A stretch of 40,121 bases of DNA, from the IMG/VR virus record IMGVR_UViG_3300021138_000071, positions 1 through 40,121 of that record, one strand, 5' to 3'. Every line of letters starts with the position of its first letter. Within the stretch, counting starts at the first letter, position 1. The position numbers and the translations under genes are program-made. Shown in pieces: positions 1,733 through 6,356 of this stretch. Below the pieces are notes generated by a model, which made no database searches, was not told where the DNA came from, and saw only the letters and a program-made list of their open reading frames with translations. This stretch comes from a virus.

Positions 1733-2554
1733 ATGAGCGACAACCCTCTTAAGCAGTATTTTAGAAGACCAGCTATTTATTTAAAACTACCCAGTGCTGG
1801 ACAAGGGTATGAGCCCGGAGTATTAGAACTGCCTCACAATGGAGAATTGCCAATTTACCCAATGACTGCAATAGATGAAATCACTGCTAGAACCCCAGAC
1901 GCACTTTACAACGGTACCGCTGTTGTAGAAATCATGAAAAGTTGCCTTCCAAATGTTAAAGATCCTTGGGAAGTGTTTAGTTCAGATTTAGATGCGATTA
2001 TGATAGGAATCAAAGTTGCTTCTAATGGAAATGACATAGAAATGGAAAGCGAATGTCCTAAGTGCAAAGAAACTGGTAAGTACGGTGTTAACTTGGCTGC
2101 TATGCTAGCCCAACTAAAATCTGGGGATTACACTAAAGAACTGAATATACATGACTTGTATTTCAAGTTTAGACCGCTAAAGTTCAAAGAAATGAATGAT
2201 ATCAACTTAAAGCAATTTGAAATACAAAAAACACTATTCCCTACAGATACAGACACTGAAGAGCAGCGCAACAAGAAAAATAAAGATGCACTTAAAGTAG
2301 TAACTGATTTAACTATTGATGTGCTATCAAAGGCTATTGAGTACATCAAGACACCAATTGGCATAGTATCAGAAAAGCCATTCATCTTAGAATTCTTAAG
2401 AAATTGCGACCGTCTTACTTACAACAAAGTAAGAGATTACACAACTGAACTTAAAGATCAAACTGAAATGCCACCACTAGATATCGTATGTGTTAATTGC
2501 AGTCATCCCTATAAGTCTAAATTTACCCTAAACGTCACTGATTTTTTCGAATAA
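1733..2554 (+). CDS. 26: Baseplate hub assembly protein gp26 (T4_baseplate family)
   Basis: 273 aa, ATG start with AAGGAT seven bases upstream. The sequence (MSDNPLKQYFRRPAIYLKLP...) resembles the gp26 family of T4-like phages, which takes part in making the central hub of the baseplate. Two CxxC pairs are visible (C108/C111 and C253/C256), which could form one zinc ribbon joining the middle and the end of the protein. It is longer than T4 gp26 (about 208 aa). The gene ends in GAT TTT TTC GAA TAA; the T-run is a -1 slippery site, so a fraction of ribosomes probably make a longer product fused to the next ORF. Family call is firm; the metal site is inferred from cysteine spacing. Confidence 0.83.
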   Translation: MSDNPLKQYFRRPAIYLKLPSAGQGYEPGVLELPHNGELPIYPMTAIDEITARTPDALYNGTAVVEIMKSCLPNVKDPWEVFSSDLDAIMIGIKVASNGNDIEMESECPKCKETGKYGVNLAAMLAQLKSGDYTKELNIHDLYFKFRPLKFKEMNDINLKQFEIQKTLFPTDTDTEEQRNKKNKDALKVVTDLTIDVLSKAIEYIKTPIGIVSEKPFILEFLRNCDRLTYNKVRDYTTELKDQTEMPPLDIVCVNCSHPYKSKFTLNVTDFFE

Positions 2555-2590
2555 GGCTTCTTAATATGGCACCCGCAGCCATTAAGAAGC
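2542..2590 (+). promoter_or_regulatory. Programmed -1 ribosomal frameshift signal joining gp26 and the gp51-like ORF
   Basis: Slippery heptamer T TTT TTC sits at 2542-2548 in the gp26 frame. After a 6-7 nt spacer, a perfect 10-bp stem follows: GCTTCTTAAT (2556-2565) pairs with ATTAAGAAGC (2581-2590), possibly with a G-U pair below and an inner GGC/GCC (2568-2570/2578-2580). The -1 frame has a TGA at 2539-2541 and is then open through the whole downstream ORF. The shift can therefore only occur between 2542 and the gp26 stop at 2552, exactly where the heptamer is. The product would be about 348 aa (272 of gp26, six linker residues RIRLLN, then 70 aa). Confidence 0.72.
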
Positions 2591-2778
2591 TGTTGGACGG
2601 GTATGAAAAAGAATGCGAAGATATAAAAAAGGGAGCCATAACTATGGCATGGTATATGCGTGGCGGTGTTTCCTACCAAGATATCCTCAACATGTCTTCT
2701 TCCGAACGGGAAGAAATCAATAAACTTATTGAGTCCAACTTAGAAACAACTAAGAAAACACAATTGCCGTTCTTCTAG
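2566..2778 (+). CDS. 51: gp51-like baseplate hub assembly / tail assembly chaperone domain
   Basis: 70 aa; visible core WYMRGGVSYQDILNMSSSER, then NLETTKKTQLPFF at the C-terminus. This size, position after gp26 and LPFF ending fit the short gp51-like hub assembly proteins annotated in cyanophage-type T4-like phages; T4 gp51 itself is much longer. It can be read two ways: as its own ORF from ATG 2566 (AAGG at 2553-2556 as ribosome site), or as the extension of gp26 by -1 frameshift, in which case it plays the part of the T domain of lambda gpGT. The ATG lies in the loop of the frameshift hairpin, so independent initiation may be poor. The identity as gp51 rests on context and recollection of the family, not on a strong motif. 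Confidence 0.58.
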   Translation: MAPAAIKKLLDGYEKECEDIKKGAITMAWYMRGGVSYQDILNMSSSEREEINKLIESNLETTKKTQLPFF

Positions 2779-2789
2779 TGCGCCAAAGA

Positions 2790-3285
2790 AAGACGAACTA
2801 CGTTCGTCTAAGACCTCACTTCGTTCGGTCTTGTTTTTCTTTTAAAGTTATTCAACTCTATTTTACAATTTTTTATTCTTCTTTTATTATTGACTGGAAT
2901 GATATCTTGCACATGCAGCTCAGAGCCCATGGTAGTGCTATTCAGAACTACCCATGGACGAAAGTTACATGCAGTCGTCGCTCCGATGTTTATCCCCCGT
3001 ATAACTAGCCCGTTCGTACTGCTATACGCCACCGGTTGCTCTGTAAGGTTTAATGGGGTCGTAGTGAAGTGATTGGCTTCAGGCCAATGTTAAGCAACGC
3101 ACATTCTATAACATCAAAACATAGTAGTTATAGACTTGTTCAGGGTTCGCTTTTTGTCGATTGCCCTGTCGGTGTGCCGATGTCTTGCTTTGTACAAGAC
3201 ATCCTACTCCAGATCCGCAGGCTACTGGCTTCCCAGGCTTGCTCAAGGAGAGTCAGGGTACCCTGACCAGACGAGTTTTGTAGCT
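2790..3285 (-). ncRNA. Candidate large structured non-coding RNA, class not recognised
   Basis: No ORF here looks like a protein. By hand count 2941-3240 is about 48% G+C, richer than the surrounding AT-rich genes, and it is packed with complementary segments. Seen (plus coordinates): 3252-3267 palindrome GTCAGGGTACCCTGAC; 3179-3187/3195-3203, 9 bp; 3225-3228/3233-3236, 4 bp; 3141-3145/3164-3168, 5 bp; 3105-3112/3127-3134, 8 bp; 3072-3077/3083-3088, 6 bp; 3035-3040/3093-3098, 6 bp enclosing the previous one; 2998-3003/3023-3028, 6 bp; 2927-2936/2947-2957, 10 bp with one bulge; 2892-2896/2972-2976, 5 bp enclosing the last. The minus strand is preferred because a promoter lies at its 5' end, its loops are purine-rich, and an A-rich tail leads into the terminator. 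ACATGCAG occurs twice (2911, 2967). Large phage RNAs such as GOLLD or ROOL are the obvious comparison, but I do not recognise their motifs. Confidence 0.5.
2791..2843 (+). terminator. Tandem-hairpin terminator between converging transcripts
   Basis: First hairpin: AGACGAAC (2791-2798) pairs perfectly with GTTCGTCT (2802-2809). Second hairpin: AAGACC (2810-2815) with GGTCTT (2827-2832), followed by GTTTTTCTTTT (2833-2843). In the plus direction this is a good intrinsic terminator 13 nt after the gp51-like stop. Read from the minus strand, the first hairpin is followed by TTCTTT, so it could also end the candidate RNA coming the other way. Confidence 0.7.
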
Positions 3286-3291
3286 GTAGGT

Positions 3292-3320
3292 ATAATACCG
3301 GTTGAGCTTTATTAGGGCAA
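3292..3320 (-). promoter_or_regulatory. Sigma70-like promoter for the candidate RNA
   Basis: On the minus strand: -35 TTGCCC (3320-3315), 17-nt spacer, -10 TATTAT (3297-3292). That is 4/6 and 5/6 matches to consensus at the ideal spacing. Predicted start is near 3285. It sits three bases beyond the stop codon of the upstream nuclease gene and points away from it into a region without genes, which is the placement expected for a separate RNA gene. Confidence 0.5.
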
Positions 3321-3322
3321 AG

Positions 3323-4589: not shown

Positions 4590-6356
4590 TTATGCTGGTT
4601 CCCCAGATGAACTGTAGGTAGTAAAGCCGCCCTCTTTAACTACTTTCAATATGTTATCAACACGACTAGATAGTTCCTCTCTATGTGAAACCAACCAAAT
4701 AGATTTATTGCGGCGGCGAGTCATATCTTTAAGAATGGACATTGCATTTTCAACGCCGATGGTGTCTAATCCAGAATCAATTAATTCGTCAATAAATATA
4801 GTATTGATTGGGAAATATAAATTTTCCCACACATCTCTAAAAGCAAACGAAAGAGAAAGTATGAGCCTATTCATTTCTCCGCGGCTAAGGTTATAGAAAT
4901 CAAGTTCTCTACCTAATTCTGTGATCTCAACATTTAAATCATTTTGAAATACTACTTGATGTGGCAATCCAATACGATCTAGATAATGAGTTAGTCTAGC
5001 GTTTAGATAACTTAGGTTCTGATCAATAATCTTTTTACGAACAAACGAATCTTTGTTAGTTAGAAGATTTAGAATGAGTGTTTGGTGTTCTAATACTTTA
5101 GTTAAGTCATTGATAGTATCAAAACTAATTGGTTGCAATGCTTGATTTTCCATTTCTGTGATTTGTTCAGCATATGGATCAGTTTCATTACTCTTATTTT
5201 CAATTTGGTTCAAGATATTAGTGATTTGGCTAGAATGCTTAACTGCTTCTGCCTCAGTATCATAGTGAGTCTTTGGAGCACGACCTAACTTACCCAACGC
5301 ACTTAGTGCATTAGTATGCTCAGTTAGTCGCTCATTAGTAGTAGACTCTAGCGCAACCGCATCTTTAAGTGCTTTCTTTTTATCACTTAACACGGTCTTG
5401 TGCTTATCATCGTGAAATTCTTGTCCACACGCATAACAAGTATGATTTTTTAAATCATCTATTTCTTTCTTTAACTTGTCGATTGTTTTGCGTTCTTTGG
5501 ACAAATCGGTCTCACAACGAGCAATCAATTTCTTTAGATCATCGATTTGCTTGGATTTTTCATTGTAAGTAACCAAATCTTTATGTGATTGCAATTCTTT
5601 ATCAATGTCGATCTTAGTTAGGTCATCATATTCTAATGCTAACTTGTTTAAGTCTTCGTCATGTTTGTTTTGCCAAAGACGTTGGCGACGCTTGGTACTT
5701 TCAATTTGTTCTTTTACACGCTTGTTGGCTTCTTCAATAGCCTTGATGTTAAACTCTTCTTGTTGAATAGCATCTTTAGACTGTTTCACTTTTTCCTTAA
5801 GTACTTCTGCTTTTTCAGAAAGCAGAGTGATACCAAGCAACTGTTCAATTACATTGCGCTGATCGTTGGCTTTCATAGCCAAAAATGGTTCACTATAAGT
5901 ATTAAGAGCAACAGTATGCTTGAACATATCTGGAGTCATACCAATTGCTTTTTCAATATGCTCTTGTGTTTCTTTGTTTTCACCCTGAGCATCATCGGTT
6001 GATTCTTGTAAGTTGCTATTGACATAGAACTTCAAAATGTTTGGTCTACGACCACGCTCAATCTTGTATTCAACACCGTTAGCACTAAACTCTAGTGTAA
6101 CAAGCATACCCTTACCGTTAGTACGATTGATTAGATTATCTTTTCTAATACTATTAATTGGTGTGCCAAATAACGCATAACTCAACCCTTGAATAAGAGT
6201 TGTCTTACCTGTACCATTTCTAGCACCGTCACCGCCCAAGTCTAAGTTTTCACCTAGAATTAGTGTAAGTTCTTTGCTGTCAAAGTTTACCGCTTGCATT
6301 ACTTGTCCAATAGACAAGAAATTACGTAAAGTTATATTTCTAAGTACGATGCTCAT
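4590..6356 (-). CDS. 46: Recombination endonuclease subunit gp46 (SbcC/Rad50-type ATPase)
   Basis: 588 aa, close to T4 gp46 (about 560). With gp47 it forms the SMC-like nuclease complex that resects DNA ends for recombination-dependent replication. Motifs in order: Walker A with the T4-type insert (GENLDLGGDG then ARNGTGKTT, residues 35-53); a charged coiled coil about 180-305; zinc hook CYAC (307-310), a standard CxxC; returning coiled coil about 315-430; ABC signature LSRGE (490-494); Walker B TIFIDEL (519-525); D-loop DSGLD; H-loop SHRE (557-560). All key residues are present. The ATG overlaps the gene 47 stop (ATGA), so the two are translationally coupled. Confidence 0.96.
   Translation of the reverse strand: MSIVLRNITLRNFLSIGQVMQAVNFDSKELTLILGENLDLGGDGARNGTGKTTLIQGLSYALFGTPINSIRKDNLINRTNGKGMLVTLEFSANGVEYKIERGRRPNILKFYVNSNLQESTDDAQGENKETQEHIEKAIGMTPDMFKHTVALNTYSEPFLAMKANDQRNVIEQLLGITLLSEKAEVLKEKVKQSKDAIQQEEFNIKAIEEANKRVKEQIESTKRRQRLWQNKHDEDLNKLALEYDDLTKIDIDKELQSHKDLVTYNEKSKQIDDLKKLIARCETDLSKERKTIDKLKKEIDDLKNHTCYACGQEFHDDKHKTVLSDKKKALKDAVALESTTNERLTEHTNALSALGKLGRAPKTHYDTEAEAVKHSSQITNILNQIENKSNETDPYAEQITEMENQALQPISFDTINDLTKVLEHQTLILNLLTNKDSFVRKKIIDQNLSYLNARLTHYLDRIGLPHQVVFQNDLNVEITELGRELDFYNLSRGEMNRLILSLSFAFRDVWENLYFPINTIFIDELIDSGLDTIGVENAMSILKDMTRRRNKSIWLVSHREELSSRVDNILKVVKEGGFTTYSSSGEPA

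Follow-up and report, generated by a model that had tools for sequence, protein, structure and literature searches.

The 40,121-base virus record IMGVR_UViG_3300021138_000071, which we refer to as the window, probably encodes two tail assembly chaperones at one locus, a short one of 273 aa and a long one of about 348 aa, with a -1 frameshift of the lambda G/GT type at the end of a gp26-like gene giving rise to the longer form. We put the probability of this reading, of which the kinship of the window phage with T4 and with jumbo phages of the RaK2/Atu_ph07 type is a part, at roughly 93%. The slip cassette, its conservation, the fused reading frame and the homology between the long form and T4 gp51 can all be followed in the sequences themselves.

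The gp26 ORF closes with the codons GAT TTT TTC GAA TAA, its zero-frame stop occupying 2552-2554, and after the TGA at 2539-2541 the -1 frame is open until the stop at 2776-2778 (Table 1). Joining 272 zero-frame residues to 76 shifted residues gives a product of 348 aa. A preliminary description of this DNA had placed here the heptamer, a spacer of 6-7 nt (7 nt by our reading), a perfect 10-bp stem and the -1 stop, all of which agree with the sequence base for base, and had put an ATG inside the hairpin loop, which does begin with that codon. Its statement that both Phe codons re-pair perfectly after the slip needs amending for the A-site codon, where re-pairing of tRNA-Phe from UUC to UUU uses third-position wobble.

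Table 1. Elements of the putative frameshift cassette and of the reading frames that it joins.
Feature	Position in the window	Strand	Basis or remark
gp26-like, putative short tail assembly chaperone, 273 aa, zero frame	1733..2554	+	PF12322, phrog_150
-1 frame upstream TGA	2539..2541	+	slip confined between this TGA and the zero-frame stop
Slippery heptamer T TTT TTC	2542..2548	+	zero frame; T TTT TTN in 24/24 clade junctions
Spacer, 7 nt, contains the zero-frame stop	2549..2555	+	sequence
Stem 5' arm, 10 bp	2556..2565	+	exact reverse complement of 2581-2590
Hairpin loop, 15 nt, opens with the sole early -1-frame ATG (2566)	2566..2580	+	sequence
Stem 3' arm	2581..2590	+	exact reverse complement of 2556-2565
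-1 frame extension ('T' part), 76 aa post-shift, stop 2776-2778	2548..2778	+	18 relatives aligned; structure prediction

The protein encoded at 1733-2554 scores 46.5 bits against PF12322, the T4 gp26 family (curated cut-off 24.5), and matches phrog_150, 'baseplate hub'. Its closest named relatives in the phage collection come from Sinorhizobium phage Phosso (33.1%) and Agrobacterium phage Atu_ph07 (32.2%). Taken by itself, the ORF at 2566-2778 (70 aa) has no Pfam match at E<=1. The gp26 domain, which holds two conserved Cys pairs (C108/C111 and C253/C256), was modeled with a mean pLDDT of 87.8, and the -1 extension is predicted to form a helical hairpin (mean pLDDT 86.8). A fold search of the PDB with both models returned no solved structure at E<=0.001, while among viral predicted models the best named matches are baseplate proteins of the gp26 family. 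When solved-structure sequences were searched, the gp26 profile met designed constructs alone, at E 0.064 or worse, and T4 gp51 had no match.

Searching IMG/VR with gp26 yielded 31 loci that comprise 24 distinct junctions, the window's own sequence being one of the 24. Retention of the heptamer among relatives had been proposed as a check on the cassette, and it proved complete: a zero-frame T TTT TTN closes gp26 in all 24 distinct junctions of this clade, as T TTT TTC in 23 and T TTT TTT in one. For comparison, in ORFs from the same loci that span 150 codons or more, called mechanically and left uncurated, T TTT TTN encodes 8 of the 67 remaining Phe-Phe pairs. A TGA lies immediately 5' of the heptamer in 15 of the 24 junctions. 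From the slip codons onward the -1 extension is conserved as FFR..L, with FFR present in 18 of 19 aligned sequences. The distant clade member L030 has T TTT TTT at 4831-4837, a longer zero-frame tail (a 289-aa gp26) and FFW replacing FFR.

The principal competing explanation holds that ATG 2566 initiates the extension as a small protein in its own right, translationally coupled to the gp26 stop, the T-run being there by chance. The window does have this ATG, with AAGG upstream of it, but the codon sits in the hairpin loop, and an early -1-frame ATG occurs in just 4 of the 24 distinct clade junctions, the window included. In the other 20, the -1 frame offers no ATG, GTG or TTG between the upstream stop and the end of its sixteenth codon, so that the extension could not normally stand as an independent gene in this clade; conservation of its protein nevertheless sets in at the slip site, and the heptamer class is retained throughout. 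On these sequences, then, the extension is normally conserved in the clade as a continuation of gp26 rather than as a free gene, and the window is one of four junctions that also offer an ATG.

The heptamer extends well beyond the clade. T TTT TTN also closes gp26 in all 56 distinct junctions that come from 80 cyanophage-type contigs (the best 80 of 591 relatives), in all 4 contigs of the Aeh1/phiAS5 type and, of 18 named phages, in 16, including Atu_ph07, PBECO4, RaK2, GAP32, Ettore, SCTP-2, Aeh1, S13, EniLVp02 and S-ShM2; these sets overlap, several named phages being counted as contigs too. A nineteenth named phage, CBB, carries it as well. It is absent from Cygsa01 and Mutine of the named set and from Coodle, HMGUkp5 and K469, from 13 of 13 distinct Ackermannviridae-type junctions, and from the last 60 nt of gp26 in T4, RB43, Stupor and phage 31. 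The gp26 3' ends of Ackermannviridae (L128, L135-L149, L165, L166) retain the -1 extension but read ATTTTCATTTAA, without a T-run. Coodle reads TAATG, and Kuttervirus-type loci and HMGUkp5 read TAATTTTTG, with ATT in place of Coodle's ATG, so that making a long form or a free extension there would call for an unusual slip, for restart or for initiation at ATT. In Pseudomonas phage Cygsa01 and Vibrio phage K469 (L040, L167), which have no T-run, the gp26 stop and the extension start overlap as TAATG.

The case for separate initiation also draws on these more distant phages, namely on the TAATG overlaps without a T-run in Cygsa01, Coodle and K469, and the cyanophage-type contigs, where all 56 distinct junctions (again among the best 80 of 591 relatives) have an early -1-frame ATG and the records annotate separate genes. 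Restart may accordingly operate alongside the heptamer in the cyanophage-type contigs, and as the two could coexist, the odds given to restart and to frameshifting need not sum to one. For the window we regard separate initiation, with the T-run as a coincidence, as very unlikely.

The hairpin downstream of the heptamer was compared with two kinds of control. Against 200 dinucleotide shuffles the window hairpin has a z of -2.54, with 5 shuffles equally good. In the second comparison the 52 nt 3' of the heptamer were folded and set against 500 synonymous recodings that preserve the -1 protein, which gave a z of -3.98 for the window (row L001, identical sequence). Across the clade, 19 of the 24 distinct junctions beat synonymous recoding at p<0.05 and 22 have an energy below the mean, although the 24 tests are not independent because the sequences are related. 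The excess is not significant in L002 (p 0.058), L027 (0.184), L028 (0.162), L030 (0.519) and L025 (0.946). Outside the clade, the 19 cyanophage-type hairpins folded, out of 56 distinct junctions, all lie below the mean, 7 of them at p<0.05; for the named phages with the heptamer the corresponding counts are 12 of 16 and 5 of 16.

The same check had also called for the stem and for compensatory changes in it: the stem is retained in the 19 junctions and its first pair is exchanged between G-C (12) and A-U (5) among 17 rows, and the five junctions just listed lack a significant excess. The pair preceding the first is G-C, G-U or A-U in 15 of the 17. These rows are the window and 16 others, with the near-copies L005, L009 and L013 and the outliers L025, L027, L028 and L030 omitted, and as each was taken from the sequence's own best fold, the table displays pair types and is no proof. 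Run on a fixed-column alignment, RNAalifold gives zero pairs, as the register of the 3' arm differs by a column from one sequence to the next. Taken together, a predicted stimulatory hairpin has good support in the window's clade and uneven support outside it.

The hairpin also bears on a second alternative, in which the T-run causes RNA polymerase to gain or lose a U during transcription. Six consecutive T may in principle slip in this way, and inserting one base would give the reading that a -1 shift gives. The run, however, is six T with a C after them in 23 of 24 junctions and seven T in the remaining one; it is phased to the zero frame, and behind it, at ribosome distance, comes the hairpin that outdoes its recoded controls in 19 of 24, all of which fits ribosomal slippage better. 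We regard transcriptional slippage, too, as very unlikely. A sequencing or assembly error that split one 26+51-type gene, of the kind that commonly arises by one-base loss in a homopolymer, is already refuted by comparison, since the identical break and heptamer class recur in 24 distinct junctions and in cultured Atu_ph07, PBECO4, RaK2, GAP32 and Aeh1.

Under the frameshift reading, most ribosomes would terminate at TAA 2552 and release the short form, the gp26 of 273 aa. A minority would stall at the hairpin at 2556-2590 with tRNA-Phe on TTT TTC, slip one base back and continue to 2776, giving a long form of ~348 aa with a helical C-terminal part. We infer this slippage, the ratio of the two products and their chaperone role. 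By analogy with lambda gpG/gpGT, the short form would coat the tape measure protein, the rare long form would recruit tail tube subunits, and both would depart before the virion is completed. In the passages of PMC3004832 cited here, a table lists T4 gp26 and gp51 among the hub assembly chaperones, with gp51 absent from the particle; the same passages refer to genetic studies that put T4 gp26 in the hub, which counts against a pure chaperone role. The CBB virion list, as given in the portion of PMC5259590 cited here, has CBB_247 and CBB_251 and none between, with a mismatch in numbering such that the paper's CBB_250 is 894 aa and RefSeq gp250 is the 286-aa gp26 homologue.

T4 gp51 matches PF12322 over residues 1-201 (E=3.9e-52) and spans positions 13-280 of the 282 in the phrog_150 profile, T4 gp26 spanning 14-235. 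With the search space set to 1000, an HMM built from 31 -1 extensions matches the gp51 C-terminus in all four phages searched, namely T4, RB43, Stupor and phage 31 (E 3e-7 to 0.0022), while their four gp26 partners give no match above threshold. In phage 31 the match starts on the second Phe of the slip site (profile position 2), and in T4 and RB43 it starts at positions 10 and 11; in T4 just the C-terminal ~50 gp51 residues match the extension. By these comparisons of sequence, T4 gp51 is a full-length gp26 paralogue with the extension as its C-terminus, so that T4 gp26 is the counterpart of the short form and T4 gp51 that of the long one. Because gp51 is a whole gp26 paralogue of which the C-terminus alone matches the extension, the gp51 equivalent in the window is the fusion product and not the 70-aa ORF; a PF12322 domain followed by the C-terminal extension is found in the fusion product alone, and in no single frame.

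The preliminary description had treated the 70-aa ORF as gp51 and had cast gp26 and gp51 as a G/GT-like pair made by -1 frameshifting. The frameshifted pair is supported, with the heptamer in 24 of 24 junctions and the stem in 19 of 24, whereas the identification of the small ORF with gp51 is lost. Nor can a 26-51 junction be compared in T4, gene 51 being divergent from gene 26 there. Unlike T4, RB43 has a tandem 51-26-25 order on one strand (L131 1501-3187; these names are by similarity, the record being without them), an arrangement that appears to have arisen directly by tandem duplication.

For a tree we chose 39 rows, 31 with the frameshift and 8 of gp26/gp51; Ackermannviridae, Cygsa01 and K469 were left out because they have no heptamer to join at. 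The eight gp26/gp51 rows of T4, RB43, Stupor and phage 31 group at 93/86, within which the gp51 rows group at 100/100 and the four gp26 rows weakly, at 77/58. This group is nested in a larger one (81/93) with frameshift-keeping Straboviridae. The tree is midpoint-rooted, has long branches (RB43 and phage 31 gp26, EniLVp02) and alone does not fix the ancestral state. With the tree as a moderate witness, the simplest history would be a frameshifted ancestor and one duplication on the T4 branch, after which one copy lost the slip site and the other fused the extension.

On a wider view, which we offer tentatively and at somewhat less than even odds, this chaperone family may arrive at one and the same long protein in three ways: by an ancestral poly-T frameshift in jumbo, cyanophage and Aeh1-type phages, by a single duplication with fusion in T4 26/51, and by an unexplained third route in Ackermannviridae. 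There the extension has no T-run, and Kuttervirus-type loci are also without ATG, GTG or TTG at the stop overlap. If all three routes are real, the need for a short/long ratio becomes testable by swapping routes between phages.

The gene divergent from gp26 lies on the minus strand at 3-1661, encodes at least 553 aa and extends past the window edge. It has no Pfam or PHROG match, and a pairwise comparison with the PBECO4 virion structural protein gp524 is weak (E 2e-4). The suggestion that the cassette stands directly before a tape measure gene is thus not sustained as written. The record of the corresponding RaK2 neighbour notes similarity to tape measure protein, and gp701, to which the Atu_ph07 annotation gives the name tape measure, does not adjoin gp686. 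At 2779-3322, the ~540 bases 3' of the extension, there is no convincing minus-strand ORF, and a terminator-like hairpin lies on the minus strand at 2809-2791. Rfam at gathering thresholds and a tRNA scan of the window were both empty.

Short and long tail chaperones in T4-like phages have been described before. In the passages cited here, PRFect (PMC10885494), citing Vladimirov, Gautam & Davidson 2022 (Virology 566:9-15), gives some T4-like phages as having short and fused long chaperone genes and no frameshifting, and the Adele paper (PMC12846349), citing the same work, mentions poly-T slip signals in TAC-N genes of T4-like phages. Naming gp26 and gp51 as those short and long chaperones follows from our domain and profile comparisons, the citing passages naming no genes, and the public record of phage Stupor labels its gp26 and gp51 alike 'tape measure protein assembly chaperone'. 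The link of T4 gp26/gp51 to the chaperone scheme is therefore not new, the matter being published according to the cited passages of PMC10885494 and PMC12846349. Our comparisons add independent support for T4 gp26 and gp51 as short and long tail assembly chaperones. They also suggest that, where public phage records split the locus into a baseplate hub gene plus an 'assembly catalyst' or hypothetical protein, the two are best taken as a single frameshifted gene, and the clade hairpins form a natural set for measuring the determinants of frameshift rate.

No report of a frameshift in the window's jumbo clade was found in the portions of the literature surveyed, where Vladimirov, Gautam & Davidson 2022 is represented by the two papers that cite it, and the word 'frameshift' is absent from the Atu_ph07 and CBB papers. 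The lambda G/GT slip heptamer differs from that of the window, and the likeness that we draw to lambda is one of a probable -1 frameshift that yields a short and a long form. The cited part of a 2016 review (PMC5009743) gives the lambda mechanism and names T4 as the exception to G-T frameshifting. T4 itself has two genes, a short 26 and a fused long 51, whereas the window has a single gene with a frameshift. At the tail assembly chaperone (TAC) locus of Vandenendeviridae (phage Adele), the cited passages of PMC12846349 propose a -1 frameshift at a conserved GTTTTT with an open -1 frame, as in the window; that locus belongs to another phage lineage and lies upstream of the tape measure gene. 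The kind of system is therefore already known, and the window and its clade are well-supported new members of it with clear cis-signals.
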